From Phycisphaerales bacterium (lineage in GTDB: Bacteria > Planctomycetota > Phycisphaerae > Phycisphaerales > SM1A02), in assembly GCA_029260575.1 (NCBI GenBank), contig JAJDDB010000004.1:310001-374000 (forward strand): a DNA stretch of 64,000 nt. Reading direction: 5' to 3'. The notes beneath the pieces are model-generated. The model was not told the origin of the DNA, did not search any database, and saw only the letters and a program-made list of their open reading frames with translations. Below are positions 2,254 to 10,288 of this stretch, piece by piece. Both the position numbers and the translations under genes were made by a program. Every line of letters starts with the position of its first letter. Position 1 is the first letter of the stretch.

Positions 2254-3969
2254 ATGCAGTGTGACGAACTGACTTTCCAGACGTGGGATGGAACCGAATT
2301 GTTTTATCGTGCGTGGTTGCCGCCCGGCGGCGCGACGCGAGCTCTCTTGTTGTTTCATCGCGGACATGAACACTCTGCACGCTGGCAGGAAACCGTCGAA
2401 TCACTCGACTTGCCCGAGACTGCAGTATTCGCATGGGATCAGCGTGGTCACGGCAAATCGCCCGGAGAACGCGGATGGGCAACGCACCTGGCTGATGTCA
2501 TACAGGACGCAGAGTGGTTTGCCCGGCATGTTGCAAGGCACCATCACATTGCTCCTGAAGACACCGCAGTTCTGGCCCATAGCGTCGGCGCTGTCATCGC
2601 TACGGCATGGGTACATGATTATGCGCCGACGCTGCGCGCGATGGTGCTTGCAACACCCGCGTTTCGCGTGAAGCTCTATGTGCCGCTGGCCGTGCCTATG
2701 CTGCGCCTGCGCAATCGTCTGTTTGGCCGCGGATTCGTCAAGAGCTATGTCAAGGCGCATATGTTGACTCGTGATCCTGAACAGGCTCAGGCGTACCGTG
2801 ATGACCCGGCAATATTTCGACAGATCGCAATCAACATCCTGCTGGATCTTCGGGATACATCGACGCGGCTGCTGGCTGACGCTGGTGCAATTCATACGCC
2901 GACCCTTATGCTCGGAGCCGGCAGGGACTGGGTCGTGCGCAAAGAGGCGCAGTGGCGCTTCTATCGCAGACTTTCGTCGGAAGTAAAGCAGATGGAATTC
3001 TTCCCGCGTGTGGGCCATGCAATGTTTCACGACGTCGGTCGGCAGGACGTTGTCAAGACGGTACGTCAGTTTCTCGTGCGCGCGTTCGACAGTCCTTCGA
3101 GCAGGCGGACGCTGATACATGCTGATCGAGGTGGTCATACTCGAACGGAATATGACTGGCTTCGAACTCCTCCGTCTTTGCCCTGGCGGGTGGTGCGGGC
3201 GTCGCTCAAATCCGTGGGCAATCTCAGCGATGGAATTCGACTTGGTTGTACGTCCGGTTTTGATTCGGGCGTCATGCTCGACTACGTCTATCGAAACAAG
3301 CCCTCCGGTCGATGGGGTGTTGGCACGATTATTGAAAGAACGTTTCTCAGCAGCGTCGGTTGGAAGGGCATTCGCGTTCGACGTAAGAACATGGAATCGC
3401 TTCTGCGCGGCGCAATTGAACAAACTGTTGCAGATGGGCAGCCTGTACACATCGCTGATATTGCTGCCGGCGCCGGCCGATATGTTCTTGAGACTCTGCA
3501 CTCGATGAATGTAACCGGCGCGACAGCTCTGTTGCGGGATTACAAACAGGCAAATCTTGACGCCGCTCGGAATCTCGCAACTCAACTTGAATTGCCAAAT
3601 GTCAACGTAGTCCGGGGTAACGCATTCGATCCATCTACGCTTGAATCATTACAACCGCGACCAACAATTGTCATTGTCTCGGGTTTGTACGAGTTGTTTC
3701 CTGACAACGAGCCGATTCGACGTTCACTTCAGGGTCTGGCAGCAGCGACAGACTCTGGGGACCGGTTGCTGTATACGTGTCAACCCTGGCATCCGCAGGT
3801 TGAATTCATTGCGCGCGTGCTTACAAATCGCGAAGGCCAGCCATGGGTCATGCGGCGTCGAACACAGGCGGAGATGGATGATCTGGTGCGCGAAGCCGGC
3901 TTCGAGAAACAGCGACAGGAAATCGATCAGTGGGGCATCTTCACAGTTTCGATCGCGAGGCGCCGGTGA
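2254..3969 (+). CDS. fusion of alpha/beta hydrolase (monoglyceride-lipase type) and class I SAM methyltransferase
   Basis: 571 residues in two modules. Residues 1-280 are an alpha/beta hydrolase of the lysophospholipase/monoglyceride-lipase type: WDQRGHGKSPGERG near residue 61, nucleophile Ser110 in LAHSVGA (Ala replaces the first Gly of GxSxG), an acid in GAGRDWV and a His in VGHAMFHD. From about residue 340 there is a Rossmann methyltransferase with motif I IADIAAGAGRYVLETL and a second acidic strand LLRDYKQANLDAARNLA. This fusion is a known family, often beside a PAP2/dual-specificity phosphatase and phospholipid-synthesis genes (recalled). Here its TGA overlaps the GTG of the PAP2 gene (GTGA), so the two are translationally coupled. 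The substrate is not known; a lipid or glycerolipid is a reasonable guess from the family and the adjacent glp genes. Confidence 0.85.
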   Translation: MQCDELTFQTWDGTELFYRAWLPPGGATRALLLFHRGHEHSARWQETVESLDLPETAVFAWDQRGHGKSPGERGWATHLADVIQDAEWFARHVARHHHIAPEDTAVLAHSVGAVIATAWVHDYAPTLRAMVLATPAFRVKLYVPLAVPMLRLRNRLFGRGFVKSYVKAHMLTRDPEQAQAYRDDPAIFRQIAINILLDLRDTSTRLLADAGAIHTPTLMLGAGRDWVVRKEAQWRFYRRLSSEVKQMEFFPRVGHAMFHDVGRQDVVKTVRQFLVRAFDSPSSRRTLIHADRGGHTRTEYDWLRTPPSLPWRVVRASLKSVGNLSDGIRLGCTSGFDSGVMLDYVYRNKPSGRWGVGTIIERTFLSSVGWKGIRVRRKNMESLLRGAIEQTVADGQPVHIADIAAGAGRYVLETLHSMNVTGATALLRDYKQANLDAARNLATQLELPNVNVVRGNAFDPSTLESLQPRPTIVIVSGLYELFPDNEPIRRSLQGLAAATDSGDRLLYTCQPWHPQVEFIARVLTNREGQPWVMRRRTQAEMDDLVREAGFEKQRQEIDQWGIFTVSIARRR

Positions 3970-4811
3970 TTTCACGTTGGCGCGCAATTTTGACATCTGT
4001 GCTGCTTAGTACGTTCTTTCTGGTTGCGTATGGAGCAACCAATTGGTTTACAGCAACGCGCGATGTGGACGCCGTATGGATGTATGAATGGGAACACCAC
4101 ATTCCATTCATTGCGCTCATGATTCTTCCATACATGTCCATTGATTTGTTCTTTGTTGCAGCACCGTTTGTGTGCTCCGATAGAGATGAGCTCCGAACTC
4201 TGATCCGGCGCATTGTGCTCGCAGTATCTGCAGCATGTACTATCTTTCTTATCATGCCTTTGAAAATGGGTATGGAACGCCCGGCCGCAGACGGCTGGCT
4301 CGGTGTTGTCTTCGACTGGTTCCGCTCAATGGATCAGCCGCACAATCTGTTTCCATCACTACACATCGCGCTGAGCGCGATTCTGCTTGCTGTGTATGCC
4401 CGTCATACTTCGGGACTGCTTCGCTGGATCACGATCGTCTGGTTCGGGTTCGTTGCCGCTTCGACACTTCTTACATACCAACATCATGTACTGGATGTTG
4501 TCGGCGGTCTGGCGCTTGGCATTGTCTGTATCTACATGTTCCCATATGCGCGATCGTCATCACAATCGTGTGCAAATCTTCGCGTTGCTGGGTATTACGC
4601 CCTGGGCGCTGTTGCGCTGCAAGTGGTTGCTGTTGCGTTTCGGGATCGATTGGGTTGGCTTATGCTTTGGCCGGCTACCGCCGTCGCGATTGTATGTGCC
4701 GGTTACTGCGGGATCGGTCCATCGATCTACCAGAAACACAACGGTCGGTTGTCACTGGCCGCTCGAATCCTTCTTGGCCCTTCCTTGCTCGGGCAATGGC
4801 TGTCCCGTTGA
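3966..4811 (+). CDS. PAP2-family membrane phosphatase, N-terminal part of a split PAP2/dual-specificity phosphatase
   Basis: 281 residues from a GTG at 3966 that overlaps the previous stop (GTGA). At least six hydrophobic segments, beginning with LTSVLLSTFFLVAYGATNWF. The PAP2 motifs are present: HNLFPSLHIALSA (PSxH) and LTYQHHVLDVVGG (the His/Asp of the third motif), so a phosphatidate or undecaprenyl/inositol-lipid phosphatase acting at the membrane is likely. It ends at a TGA (4809-4811), after which the same frame stays open through a linker (YYAKRNRPWDVVDE, STWIGRHLNEEEAQ) straight into the dual-specificity phosphatase below. In relatives these are one polypeptide (recalled), so this is probably one gene interrupted by a single nonsense codon. 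Confidence 0.85.
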   Translation: MISRWRAILTSVLLSTFFLVAYGATNWFTATRDVDAVWMYEWEHHIPFIALMILPYMSIDLFFVAAPFVCSDRDELRTLIRRIVLAVSAACTIFLIMPLKMGMERPAADGWLGVVFDWFRSMDQPHNLFPSLHIALSAILLAVYARHTSGLLRWITIVWFGFVAASTLLTYQHHVLDVVGGLALGIVCIYMFPYARSSSQSCANLRVAGYYALGAVALQVVAVAFRDRLGWLMLWPATAVAIVCAGYCGIGPSIYQKHNGRLSLAARILLGPSLLGQWLSR

Positions 4812-4874
4812 TATTACGCGAAACGAAACCGACCCTGGGACGTCGTTGATGAAAGCACGTGGATTGGACGGCAT

Positions 4875-5276
4875 TTGAATGAAGAGGAAGCGCAACACGC
4901 GAGTTTATCCGGCGTGACTGCTGTCATAGATCTTACATCCGAATTCAATGCGCCAAGGCAGTGGCAAACGATTCCATATCTGAATCTGCAAGTGCTGGAT
5001 CTCACCGCGCCAACCCAGGTGCAGATTCGATGCGCGCTCGAGTTCATCAGTAAACATGCACAAAATGGCATAGTGTATGTTCATTGCAAGGTTGGCTACT
5101 CCCGATCTGCCGTCATCGTCGGTGCGTCGCTCCTGTCGCGTGGACGTGCAGAAAATGTCAACGATGCACTCATGCAGCTTACTGAGATGCGGCCGGGTAT
5201 CGTCGTACGACCAGAAGCGGTCCGTGCGTTGATGACGTTTGAAGAAAGTCTCGTAGCGCACATCAACACAACGTAA
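4875..5276 (+). CDS. dual-specificity (tyrosine-type) phosphatase domain, C-terminal part of the split PAP2/DSP protein
   Basis: About 133 residues if started at the TTG at 4875. The cysteine-phosphatase loop is intact: YVHCKVGYSRSAVIVGA holds Cys-x5-Arg followed by Ser. An upstream general-acid loop is less clear. It shares the reading frame of the PAP2 gene, and no good independent start exists: the TTG lies inside the conserved stretch TWIGRHLNEEEA, has no Shine-Dalgarno, and the nearby ATGs (4850, 4879) are in other frames. Either the domain is made by reading through the TGA at 4809, or it is poorly expressed or a broken gene. Substrate unknown; related domains act on phosphoinositides, phosphatidylglycerol phosphate or phosphotyrosine. 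Confidence 0.75.
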   Translation: MNEEEAQHASLSGVTAVIDLTSEFNAPRQWQTIPYLNLQVLDLTAPTQVQIRCALEFISKHAQNGIVYVHCKVGYSRSAVIVGASLLSRGRAENVNDALMQLTEMRPGIVVRPEAVRALMTFEESLVAHINTT

Positions 5277-5349: not shown

Positions 5350-6441
5350 TTAGCGTATTGATGTGTGTGCAGCAGATTCTCTTACATGGTCTTGAACATT
5401 TTCAAGCCCATCATTTGAATCCACATCGGTTACACCACGACCGATCGACCACGTGCCGTCTTCAAATCGCACTGTGCGGTCCATTGACGTGACGGTTCCC
5501 CGAAGAACATTCAAGCTGCCGTCGATTACAACCACGTCGAGTGATGGCGAAGCGATCGTGAATACATCGCGATGCAATTGTATTAAAGTTACAGTAGGGC
5601 CGGATGTAAACGTAAGTTGAAATCCGAGCCTGGCGTTGAAAATGCAGACGGGATCCGGATTTACACAATCTGCTACACGCCCGGCATGCTGCGGCATCAA
5701 CGTCAGGCGTGCTTCAGTTGGCTCCAGCACAACGTCGCCTCCAACGAATTGCACGTGATCTTGCATCCATTTGAGGATGTTCTCTTGAGCAGCATCAATC
5801 TGTGCAGATGTAATGGCCGAGCCAGTGACGTCGAGATGCGCCACCAACTGCTGGGCTATTTGAAGCGGAATATGCCACTCCACGATACATTTATCGCCCA
5901 CCTGTTCGACAAGAAGCAGTGGCTGATCGAACGGATTGGATGTGAGCAATGGCGCTGGCACGTATTGGCCACGAATGACGGCAAGATCAATCGTCTCCAC
6001 ATTGCCGCCGCTCGTCAGTGTAACTGCGGAATTGCGCAACGATCCTGCGCCGCTGCCGTATATTGCGAGTTTGAGTTGACGTGCCTGCTGCGCGAGTGGA
6101 CTACTGGGGCGTAGTATCATCGCGACAAAACGAACATCAATATCGAGCGGAACCGAGATCGAGAGATTCGTTGTTTCGACGTGCAGGCGCTCGCCATGCT
6201 CATTGTACATCAGCAACGAATCTGTCAACGCTCGGACGTACTGGTTTGCCGCATCCTTGGCTTGCGGGTGAATCGACGTGTGTCCAAGTACATGTTCGTT
6301 GATCTGCGGGTGCATTTCCAGCCTGTTCAAATGCACCACGACCTCAGCAAAATCCACCGCAACACTGTGGCCGTATGCCGGCACCACAGCGATAATCATT
6401 GCAATTACAAAAACAAGTTTCTCGCAGAATCTATTTCGCAA
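5350..6441 (-). CDS. exported protein of unknown function, last gene of the mannosidase operon
   Basis: 363 residues from a TTG at 6441 whose codon overlaps the end of the mannosidase gene (11 bases shared). The beginning RNRFCEKLVFVIAMIIAVV followed by PAYGHS looks like a signal peptide, so export is expected. An ATG at 6399 inside the hydrophobic core is a poorer start. The mature part has alternating strand-like segments (for example FAEVVVHLNRLEMHPQIN, TLTSGGNVETIDLAVIRG, LLLVEQVGDKCIVEWHIPL) and looks like one or two beta-sandwich domains. I do not recognise a family or catalytic motif. Being the last gene of the sugar-uptake/alpha-mannosidase operon, it may bind glycans or assist the mannosidase, but this is inference only. 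The frame continues upstream to 6843 inside the mannosidase gene; that extension is not coding. Confidence 0.7.
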   Translation of the reverse strand: MRNRFCEKLVFVIAMIIAVVPAYGHSVAVDFAEVVVHLNRLEMHPQINEHVLGHTSIHPQAKDAANQYVRALTDSLLMYNEHGERLHVETTNLSISVPLDIDVRFVAMILRPSSPLAQQARQLKLAIYGSGAGSLRNSAVTLTSGGNVETIDLAVIRGQYVPAPLLTSNPFDQPLLLVEQVGDKCIVEWHIPLQIAQQLVAHLDVTGSAITSAQIDAAQENILKWMQDHVQFVGGDVVLEPTEARLTLMPQHAGRVADCVNPDPVCIFNARLGFQLTFTSGPTVTLIQLHRDVFTIASPSLDVVVIDGSLNVLRGTVTSMDRTVRFEDGTWSIGRGVTDVDSNDGLENVQDHVRESAAHTSIR

Positions 6442-9400
6442 TGTCGATGTCCACCTCTGTAAAGAATGTTCCCTGTCCCATATCCTCCGCCACCCAAAGT
6501 AAGTATCGGTGAACTCCAATTGATGAAAGCTCCGACGCGTGGATGTCGCCGTTGCCGAGTTCGCGTGTGTCGACAACGCCAAGCAATTCCCAGCTTTCGT
6601 TGTCGCCGTGCGAGAACGTCGCATCCGGCAGCGAGTCGCCGGATGCGCCCCATACCGAAAAGTATTGCGGAGCACGGTTACTTCGGTGCCATGAGTATGT
6701 TCGCACGTATTGAATGTCGCGCGCTGCTCCGAGATCAACATAGAAACGACCTGCATTGTCATACCACACGCAACGCTGCGTATCATCATCATTGCGCGCG
6801 AGTTGGCCATCATTGAGGCGAGGCAGCATGTCGGAGACTGCACCAGAACCCGGGTGCGGGCTCCACGCTCCCATATTGTCGATGAAGCGAAAAGTTAGGT
6901 CGACAGCATCGTCATTCGCAACGGGCGCAGCGATTGAAAGTCTGTTGAATGACTGACCGCGCGCAGTTGTTGCTGTTGTGCGTGGTGTCACTCCTTCGAA
7001 CACCGGAACAGCTGTCTGTTGATACGTGTGTCGCAACTCAATCTGGTCTGTTCCATCAAATGCGTCATACAAAAGAGCAGCGGGGCGGGTCTGCGCATTC
7101 GGATCATCCGCAACCGTCATTGCAAAGATGCGAATGTGCGGATCGTTGGGAAGGGTAAGCGTGTGGTCAGATTCATTGAGCCGAATGTGGTATCGAAACA
7201 AATACGAGAATCGATAGGGATCATTACCCTTCGATGCGTCGTGCCGATGCGTGCAGAACCACGCAATGGGATCGCGCTTAATGTATGCGGGTTCAATGCC
7301 GATGACGTTACCCACGCAGCGATAATCAACTTCTTCAAATGGGCGGTCCCACGTTCTGTTGTACCACTGGCCGACGAAATCCGTCCACGACTGGATCGTC
7401 AGTTCGTGCGACGTTGTCTCGGTTGTAAATGAAGCGGTTCGATCCTCCGTCGCCGCTGCAAGAATGTAGAGATCGCGCATGTCTCCTTCGTGAATTGCAA
7501 TATCTTGCCCCCGGCAGGTGAGAGCATTGAATGCATTTCCCGCACTTGGCCCAAGTACGAAGGGAATGTCGTTGAAAACGAGCGATTCGGGCAGCATTTC
7601 TCCGGGTATGGATTTGCCCGAGCCGTCCATCGATGCGCCTCCAACATCATCATCACCTGTCGTCACATCAGTATCGAACGGCAGGTCGATGATCTGCGCA
7701 CGAGGCGGCGACAATTCGGCATTCGGTTCGCGCAATTTTATCGCAAACGAATGTGGACTGTACGGCTTCATGTCAAGACGCAAACGTCCATCATGTACGT
7801 CAGCAGCGCCAATGATTCGTTCCTGTCCGTCAACCTCTCGCGCTTCAAGAATCGGTTTGACGAAACTGACTTGCACGTCATCCGCAGGTAATCCCCAAAG
7901 TTCCTGCAGCCGAACGATGATCCAATCTGATTGCTCAGCAACTTTGATCGCGCGGATATCAACCTGTCCGGTGTTTACTGTTGCGAACGAGAACTGCCGT
8001 TGTAACTGACCACTGCGCCGCGTAGTTTGAAACGAACGCAAAGGCTGATTGATGCGCCTGCCGTACCACTCGGTTCCGCTGGTGCGCCAATCACCACTGT
8101 GCGGATAGATGCCGTAGGTTATCTGGTGCCGGCCCCAGTCCTGGGAGTGCTGATCAAGGTAACCATTGCGCACGCCGGGTGTGTACAGCAACGTCAATCG
8201 AATTTCATCAGGCGACGGTTTATCGGAGCCATACTTGGAATCTTCAATGATCGAAACGCCATAGGAATGGTCAGGCGATGTAAGATCAATCCACTCGTGC
8301 GATGGAACTTCATATTTGCGCGGGTCATTGTTACCGCGCTGTACGGTGCCAAGGCCCCAGTTGTATGTCGCCATGTCATTGCGCACTTTGAGCGGAAAAC
8401 TGGCCTTGAGCGCGCATTCGGTCGATTGCCAGTCGATATCAGCGTCGATTTGTACGACGCGTCCGAAGTCACCCGCGCAGAGACTAATGCGTTGGGTAAT
8501 GAACGAGTTGCGTGCAGCCCGTGAGACTTCAATCGTCGCGCGCACCGGCCCACGTTCGACAACCCGGATGCGTGCCGGGCCATCAACGTAGCCACTCGGC
8601 GGGCGCTGCCGGTCGTTCCAGTCCATATTCCAGGCTGGCCATTGCTGTGGCATTTCGTATGTAAACGCAAGCCTGGACGGTTGCGACAGAACCTCACGCT
8701 TCGCCTGTTTGTCGAAGATCGATGCGATGTCTCCAGCGTCGTTGACTGTCACGCGCAGGAATTCGTTCTCGAGCGTGCGATCTGTGACCTGCAAGAGTCC
8801 TGCCGCCTCCAACGACCGTGCCGGACGAACATCGAACACTGAAAAACTGTTCGGTTCGACAGGCGCCACGAAGAGAATTGTCACACGCTGTTGATCCCGT
8901 GCGATGAGCTGCGCAAGTGTTTCTCGGCCGTCAGGTCCGAACACGCGCACCGCGGCGGGGATTTGCTGATCAGGGCCGAATTGCACACGGGCTTCAACAA
9001 CATCGTTGCGCGCGATCGCAAGTGGGTTTACGACAACAATCGGCACACCTTCGGTATCAGTATCAAGAGCGCGAGCAACCCCGCCGGTCGCATGCGTCAG
9101 CACCGAAGCGAACCCGTTCAGTGCAATAATCTCGTCGTTCCATGAATACGTGTACGCCCGGGGAATACTCGTGCCCGGCAGAATATCATGCATCTGATTG
9201 GCAAGAAAGCGCACCCACGAGCGCTCGAGTTGCTTGCGTGGATATTGCATCGCGCCCAGCCACGACGCAGCGACCGCAGCACGCTCAGCAGCATCTGCAA
9301 GTTGCTCGCACTGACGATTCCAGCGCTTCATGTACGACTGACTCGTCAGCGTGCCCGCAGAGTGCTCTGTCAAAAGCAGATCACCCTTATACCGAGGCAG

Positions 9401-10288
9401 GCGTAAACGCTGTTCCGGCGTCAGATCCCTGTACAACTGATCTGAAGCGGCCAGCACAACCTTAATTTGGCTGTCGGGGTTGTCGATCGATGCAAGATAG
9501 TTTTCGACATCTTCCGCCCGTGGCGCGCCGCCTTGATCACCAACTCCGTAGTAATGGTAATCCGCCCACACGCCAAAACGCTCACCGTTGTCATTCACAC
9601 GGCGAACCCATTGCGGGTTCAGATCAACGCGCCCCTTAATCGCGCCGACGTACGCGCCGGGGTCCAGAGCTGCCACGACAGATCGGCCGTCGGGCCCGAC
9701 CCATTCACCGATCTTGAACGGGATTCCCATCGCTGAGCCCCACGTAAGTTTCTGCGTGGAGAAACCCTTCAGTCCGCAATGCGCCCAGATCGAAGGCATC
9801 GATGCAGGAAATCCGAAACAATCCGGCAACATGAAGTCCGCAGATTCTTTGCCGAACTCGCGCTTGAAATACAAATTGCCGTATAACACCTGCCGGATGA
9901 TCGACTCCGGCGAGGGCACATTCGCATCACCCTCATCCACGGACGAGCCGCTCACGAACCACCGTCCGGCTTCGATATGCTCGGCAAGTTCTTCGTATAG
10001 ATCCGGATAGTACTCGCGCATCATTTCATAGCGTGCAGAGCCGGTGAAATTGAATGTGTAGCCGGGATACTTGTCAAACAACGCGAAGTTCTGTTCCAGT
10101 GTATCGCGGATGTACTTGTCGATTGTCGTTGGATAATCCCATCGCCATTGGGTATCCAGGTGCGCGTACCCGACGCAATACAGCACTTTCTCTTTCGAGA
10201 GATCATGTGCGCGCTCGTCAGTCTGCCCACATGCAAGCGATGCGATACTTACGCCAACTCCACATGCTAAAGCGCGTTGCAGCTTCAT
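6431..10288 (-). CDS. exported GH38-family alpha-mannosidase with C-terminal F5/8-type-like domain
   Basis: 1285 residues. A signal peptide (KLQRALACGVGVSIASLACG) is followed by a GH38 catalytic domain. Zn ligands are visible in GYAHLDTQWRWDY (His43, Asp45), and the nucleophile Asp156 sits in MLPDCFGFPASMPSIWAH, with GFSTQKLTWG after it. A His in TEHSAGTLTSQ near residue 300 is the remaining expected ligand region. Beta-sandwich domains typical of GH38 follow, then from about residue 1110 a segment (WSPHPGSGAVSDMLPRLNDG; FYVDLGAARDIQYVRTYSW) that resembles an F5/8 (discoidin) carbohydrate-binding fold. It would cleave alpha-linked mannose from glycans outside the cytoplasm. The ATG overlaps the permease stop (ATGA). 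Longer than typical bacterial GH38 enzymes (about 850-1050), the extra length being the C-terminal domain. Confidence 0.92.
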   Translation of the reverse strand: MKLQRALACGVGVSIASLACGQTDERAHDLSKEKVLYCVGYAHLDTQWRWDYPTTIDKYIRDTLEQNFALFDKYPGYTFNFTGSARYEMMREYYPDLYEELAEHIEAGRWFVSGSSVDEGDANVPSPESIIRQVLYGNLYFKREFGKESADFMLPDCFGFPASMPSIWAHCGLKGFSTQKLTWGSAMGIPFKIGEWVGPDGRSVVAALDPGAYVGAIKGRVDLNPQWVRRVNDNGERFGVWADYHYYGVGDQGGAPRAEDVENYLASIDNPDSQIKVVLAASDQLYRDLTPEQRLRLPRYKGDLLLTEHSAGTLTSQSYMKRWNRQCEQLADAAERAAVAASWLGAMQYPRKQLERSWVRFLANQMHDILPGTSIPRAYTYSWNDEIIALNGFASVLTHATGGVARALDTDTEGVPIVVVNPLAIARNDVVEARVQFGPDQQIPAAVRVFGPDGRETLAQLIARDQQRVTILFVAPVEPNSFSVFDVRPARSLEAAGLLQVTDRTLENEFLRVTVNDAGDIASIFDKQAKREVLSQPSRLAFTYEMPQQWPAWNMDWNDRQRPPSGYVDGPARIRVVERGPVRATIEVSRAARNSFITQRISLCAGDFGRVVQIDADIDWQSTECALKASFPLKVRNDMATYNWGLGTVQRGNNDPRKYEVPSHEWIDLTSPDHSYGVSIIEDSKYGSDKPSPDEIRLTLLYTPGVRNGYLDQHSQDWGRHQITYGIYPHSGDWRTSGTEWYGRRINQPLRSFQTTRRSGQLQRQFSFATVNTGQVDIRAIKVAEQSDWIIVRLQELWGLPADDVQVSFVKPILEAREVDGQERIIGAADVHDGRLRLDMKPYSPHSFAIKLREPNAELSPPRAQIIDLPFDTDVTTGDDDVGGASMDGSGKSIPGEMLPESLVFNDIPFVLGPSAGNAFNALTCRGQDIAIHEGDMRDLYILAAATEDRTASFTTETTSHELTIQSWTDFVGQWYNRTWDRPFEEVDYRCVGNVIGIEPAYIKRDPIAWFCTHRHDASKGNDPYRFSYLFRYHIRLNESDHTLTLPNDPHIRIFAMTVADDPNAQTRPAALLYDAFDGTDQIELRHTYQQTAVPVFEGVTPRTTATTARGQSFNRLSIAAPVANDDAVDLTFRFIDNMGAWSPHPGSGAVSDMLPRLNDGQLARNDDDTQRCVWYDNAGRFYVDLGAARDIQYVRTYSWHRSNRAPQYFSVWGASGDSLPDATFSHGDNESWELLGVVDTRELGNGDIHASELSSIGVHRYLLWVAEDMGQGTFFTEVDIDIAK

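Follow-up and report, generated by a model that had tools for sequence, protein, structure and literature searches.

A probable recent in-frame nonsense codon in the ynbD-like phosphatase gene of a ynbC–ynbD pair from a Phycisphaerales bacterium

The YnbD family and the layout of the locus

E. coli YnbD (b1411) is described as a "phosphatase domain-containing protein", in which a PAP2 domain and a dual-specificity phosphatase (DSP) domain are joined in one chain of 430 amino acids, and its gene stands behind ynbC in the row ynbA, ynbB, ynbC, ynbD. In the available part of PMC7413402, YnbD is given no assigned function, and defects in C55-PP and PGP phosphatase are not complemented by it. The literature search found no paper on ynbABCD, and none on a fusion of PAP2 and DSP domains in Planctomycetes. 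The DSP fold and its catalytic loop are also present in PTPMT1-type and archaeal DSP phosphatases (3rgo, 5z59); these have both features in common with the DSP part described here, whereas as solved they are single-domain catalytic chains, about 25% identical to it, with no fused PAP2 domain.

The window (that is, the whole stretch of 64,000 nucleotides that was analysed) contains a gene at 3966–5276 which, judged by sequence homology, is the orthologue of E. coli ynbD and lies directly behind the orthologue of ynbC, as in E. coli (Table 1). The product of the upstream gene shares 46% identity with E. coli YnbC across 577 alignment columns, and it contains the Pfam domains Hydrolase_4 (6.7e-60) and Methyltransf_20 (2e-119). 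In BLASTP against E. coli YnbD, the PAP2 part is matched with an E value of 8e-44 (35% identity, 271 alignment columns) and the DSP part with an E value of 2e-16 (30% identity, 145 alignment columns). Since both halves can be aligned to one and the same YnbD, and to 14 further fused relatives, the open frame after the TGA is not a product of chance. The two domains, their order, their junction and the ynbC neighbour are thus common to E. coli YnbD and the window gene; the difference is that the junction is formed by a sense codon in E. coli, whereas in the window the frame is split by TGA, so that the uninterrupted frame of a YnbD-type gene is missing. The upstream surroundings also differ, with glpK- and glpD-like genes before ynbC in the window in place of ynbA and ynbB.

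Table 1. Features of the interrupted gene and its neighbour (positions in the window)
Feature	Position	Strand	Details	Basis
ynbC-like gene	2254..3969	+	alpha/beta hydrolase + methyltransferase fusion, 571 aa	Pfam, YnbC homology
PAP2 part of ynbD-like gene	3966..4808	+	281 codons, GTG start	translation, Pfam, YnbD homology
In-frame TGA	4809..4811	+	between membrane module and DSP domain	sequence, translation
DSP part	4812..5276	+	154 codons, then TAA (5274–5276)	DSPc match, predicted structure
Sole nearby in-frame restart codon, TTG	4875..4877	+	DSP residue 22; 63 nt after stop	

In Pfam, the first part is recognised as PAP2 (4.4e-08) and PAP2_3 (5.5e-07), and it consists of the PAP2 core and a C-terminal membrane module (about residues 205–280). 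The second part is recognised as DSPc (8e-17); its domain is intact and carries the active-site loop HCKVGYSR. The preliminary description of this DNA had reported a single in-frame TGA followed by an intact DSP domain, and the sequence, its translation and the Pfam matches bear this out. The GTG start of the ynbD-like gene and the stop of the upstream gene overlap by 4 nt (GTGA), which suggests that the two genes are probably translationally coupled. When the junction was scanned, no promoter-like site was found; one terminator-like site (4791–4805) was returned, against 0.8 expected by chance, and it was disregarded. The DSP part is probably untranslated or poorly translated. Just downstream of it, on the minus strand, lies an ORF (5350–6843, 497 aa as listed, with its true start probably further in), which overlaps the end of an ORF of 1285 aa (6431–10288).

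In one relative (L003:89–9498), ynbC and ynbD stand in a row with genes for a CDP-alcohol phosphatidyltransferase, a CTP_transf_1 protein and an acyltransferase on one side, and with an MFS + acyltransferase + AMP-binding gene on the other; this row is a candidate lipid-making cluster. From these neighbours and from its domains, the intact protein may be expected to have a role in lipid-phosphate or lipid head-group metabolism. It is a predicted phosphatase, the support for its activity being the conserved motifs in the sequence.

The TGA column and the constraint on the DSP half

In the alignment with the window, a sense codon occupies the TGA column in all 15 distinct fused relatives, which are not all independent (L010 and L011 share one genus), so the earlier statement that relatives carry both domains in one protein holds for these. 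These 15 were counted after leaving out duplicates from one genome (L023, L103, L105, L107), fragments, and relatives that have either no PAP2 core or nothing but the PAP2 part; of those retained, L025 is cut by a contig end, L008 is missing its N-terminal region, and the C-terminus of L009 is altered. The residues at the column are L in six, V in three, K and R in two each, and M and I in one each; W is found in none of the 15, and Cys is likewise absent. In four close relatives with no PAP2 core in frame (L006, L007, L026 and L027), where the column was read by eye, W appears only in L027, whose alignment there is poor. Intact copies are thus widespread. Because the 15 fused relatives have L, V, K, R, M or I and never W, an ancestral TGG is unsupported, and so is the path from TGG to TGA proposed in the preliminary description.

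The DSP half shows no sign of decay and diverges no faster than the PAP2 half. When DSP identity was regressed on PAP2 identity over the other pairs (sd 0.050), the mean residual of the window was 0.000, with those of the other sequences lying between -0.069 and +0.030. In the alignment of fused relatives, the DSP part keeps all 11 invariant columns and all 18 columns conserved at 90%, and the PAP2 part keeps 41 of the 41 columns in which at least 90% of the relatives agree. The predicted structure of the DSP part has a mean pLDDT of 88.4, and in Foldseek the model is matched to DSP structures, including that of PTPMT1 (3rgo). In a simulation of neutral substitution, the probability of retaining both the open frame and all 18 residues was 0.35 for a divergence of 2%, falling to 0.07 for 5% and to 0.005 for 10%, from which it follows that a dead DSP half must be young. 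Either the stop is young, or the cell does not have it, or the DSP continues to be produced.

The reading that we favour, with a probability of roughly 0.64, is that a YnbD-family gene in a ynbC–ynbD pair has been disrupted by a single in-frame stop of recent origin. It is favoured because the frame is open in 15 of 15 relatives, the DSP half is undecayed, there is no usable restart, RF2 is present, neither a suppressor tRNA nor a Sec system was found in the genome, and the gene looks dispensable. As in ordinary bacterial nonsense pseudogenes, from which the locus has no notable difference, the orthologues are intact, one lineage has a single in-frame stop with flanks homologous to one protein, and no functional restart follows. 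The stop itself, the homology on both sides of it, the sense codons in the relatives and the lack of acceleration in the DSP half are observed; from them we infer a real base, a recent change and the loss of the DSP step in the cell. In that case, ribosomes passing on from the upstream gene by way of the GTGA overlap would produce a membrane PAP2 protein of 281 residues and terminate there, and the DSP half would be lost, or would arise in trace amounts only, through background misreading or a weak internal start. The recency of the change is derived from the constraint and not from a sister sequence, as the window's genome alone represents its genus among the genomes compared; against a recent nonsense mutation it has to be said that an intact, constrained DSP half is equally expected if the DSP is translated.

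Second in rank, and on the whole unlikely, is that the TGA stems from a wrong base in the consensus, or from a mixture of strains, in the draft assembly, the intact fusion of about 436 residues being made in the living cell. The genome is a draft of 41 contigs, 95.3% complete and 1.86% contaminated, and an error would leave just this pattern, one substitution flanked by perfectly constrained sequence; a base error is indeed compatible with all the data that support a recent nonsense mutation. On the other hand, substitution errors are rare in a deep consensus, there is no sign of pervasive indel errors (ORFs of at least 250 aa span 80% of the 404 kb of contig), and no second pair split in the same frame was noticed when the ORF map of the window was gone through by eye and unsystematically. 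A codon-usage scan of the 404 kb for stops flanked on either side by coding signal ranked the TGA 418th of 2123 candidates, but its signal is too weak (0.11 nats per codon) to bear on other broken genes.

Among the three options raised in the preliminary description, then, a recent nonsense mutation is the best supported and a sequence error is possible, while programmed readthrough is left without support; for readthrough, gene fission and recoding alike, the tests at the locus and in the genome returned no positive evidence. For annotation this means that the two open frames, PAP2 and DSP, should be treated as halves of one YnbD-type gene. As an ordinary nonsense interruption, the locus would be one more instance of decay in a lipid-phosphatase pair of patchy distribution, and is of little further consequence.

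Restart codons, natural split points and dispensability

The TTG listed in Table 1 is the first in-frame ATG, GTG or TTG past the TGA. If it were used, the DSP of the window would be translated alone after the PAP2 stop, as a true gene fission, which we consider very improbable. The codon does lie close behind the stop, with a weak purine stretch a few nucleotides upstream of it, and stand-alone DSP-like proteins are present in the phylum. A start there, however, removes residues 1–21 of the DSP part, and with them two strands predicted with good confidence at residues 9–13 and 16–20. A further TTG (4808–4810), which overlaps the TGA, was rejected as a restart; it lies in a different frame, which is closed by a stop after 13 codons. 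The earlier remark that no good restart exists therefore stands.

The natural split points of the family also lie elsewhere. Many Planctomycetota have a protein of about 225–300 residues in which YnbD's C-terminal membrane module stays joined to the DSP and the PAP2 core is absent (L007:4617–5363, L027 and L113–L133); two of them, L007 and L027, are linked to ynbC. Such proteins match the profile only from positions of about 200–225 to the end (about 205–424 in L113, L116 and L118), so that they have the same membrane module and DSP as the window gene, but their boundary comes before the membrane module, about 70–80 residues upstream of the window TGA, which comes after it. A functional fission would be expected either before the membrane module or with a new start past the stop, and the window has neither. 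Separate-gene relatives had been named beforehand as an observation that would speak against a single broken gene; relatives without the PAP2 core do exist, but not with their boundary at the TGA.

In the search of the phylum, 51 matches were obtained in 47 of 392 genomes, and a stop within the match was found in seven, namely the window and six others. Three of these six (L115, L117 and L121) are open from about profile position 201–207 onwards, and their stops thus come before the membrane module; the remaining three reach only profile position 198 or 263.

The gene looks dispensable, with its loss tolerated in many lineages, as judged from three observations. Of the family's 181 genomes, only 5 have a strong ynbC match. 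In the nearest relative of the family (G003), the ynbC match runs as far as residue 423, where the PAP2 match takes over at its residue 97 with no gap between them, so that this ynbC–ynbD fusion is either a deletion of about 0.7 kb or a misassembly. Among 5426 complete genomes of E. coli, ynbD is matched in 4577, of which 4559 hold at least 80% of it, and has no match in 849; 60 of the ynbD rows, sampled evenly down the ranking, comprised 59 full-length copies and one fragment. At the G003 junction (L103, contig C328, about 1466–1476), ynbC has lost its 3′ part and ynbD its 5′ part, and what remains of the two genes is joined out of frame. A rearranged pair is seen in G457 (L101, contig C44), in which an intact ynbD-like gene stands on the strand opposite to ynbC.

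Decoding of UGA in the genome

UGA might also be read as an amino acid, either Sec or Trp, in the organism or at this site, and a TGA within an otherwise open frame is what would be seen in that case; yet we regard such recoding as barely credible. TGA is the commonest stop, ending 137 of the 214 training ORFs of at least 250 aa in the 404 kb of contig, and RF2 is found above its family cut-off in the window's genome, in agreement with the earlier view that TGA is a normal stop here and the code unaltered. For Sec, both SelB and tRNA-Sec should be present in the genome. The best SelB match in the genome (95.3% complete) reached 196.9 bits, below the cut-off of 242.25 bits, and is presumably EF-Tu; the sole hit of the tRNA-Sec model over its cut-off was identified by ARAGORN as tRNA-Leu(UAA). 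A selenoprotein stem-loop after the UGA was not found either, the RNA around the stop being no better folded than shuffled sequences and its folds in three stretches being weaker than theirs (z +1.07, +0.69 and +0.55). For a change of UGA to Trp, the expected signs are the loss of RF2, a tRNA-Trp with anticodon UCA and the disuse of UGA as a stop, and none of them was found: ARAGORN, run on loci covering all 48 tRNAs that Rfam finds in the genome, gave no UCA anticodon among the 48, and the tRNA-Trp has anticodon CCA. The absence of Cys and Trp from the column in the relatives likewise speaks against recoding.

UGA is the most easily misread stop, the frame downstream of it is open and the DSP is fully constrained, all of which would suit a programmed or leaky readthrough yielding a membrane PAP2 protein and a minor fused PAP2–DSP product. 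Such readthrough is nevertheless improbable. A programmed stop should be conserved among orthologues, and none of the 15 fused relatives has one; the RNA structure downstream is not unusual, no tRNA of the 48 reads UGA, and the anticodon stem of the tRNA-Trp is an ordinary one of 5 bp (by eye). It differs in this from the 4-bp anticodon stem that, in the available part of PMC13092985, is linked to the reading of UGA. The idea of programmed readthrough put forward beforehand thus finds nothing to sustain it in the relatives, the fold or the tRNAs. Nor do we give much credence to the TGA being a regulated readthrough or fission point, at which mostly membrane PAP2 with a small share of PAP2–DSP would be made and the DSP would be selected behind the stop. 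If it were true that sister species have fixed the TGA with a constrained and expressed DSP, the locus would represent a readthrough that separates membrane and soluble phosphatases.

Elsewhere in the same genome (C1:61853–61938; L041, L155), there is a leucine-like tRNA gene of type II, 86 nt long with a long variable arm, for which ARAGORN gives the anticodon UGG (proline CCA). The genome also has a normal tRNA-Pro(UGG) (L064) and a tRNA-Leu(UAG) (L077). Another genus of the family (G457, contig C9; L156) holds a copy that is 81% identical and has the same anticodon, and the other 10 of the 12 best-match loci are tRNA-Leu(UAG). Judged by its sequence, this tRNA could bring leucine to CCA codons, or it could have another role.
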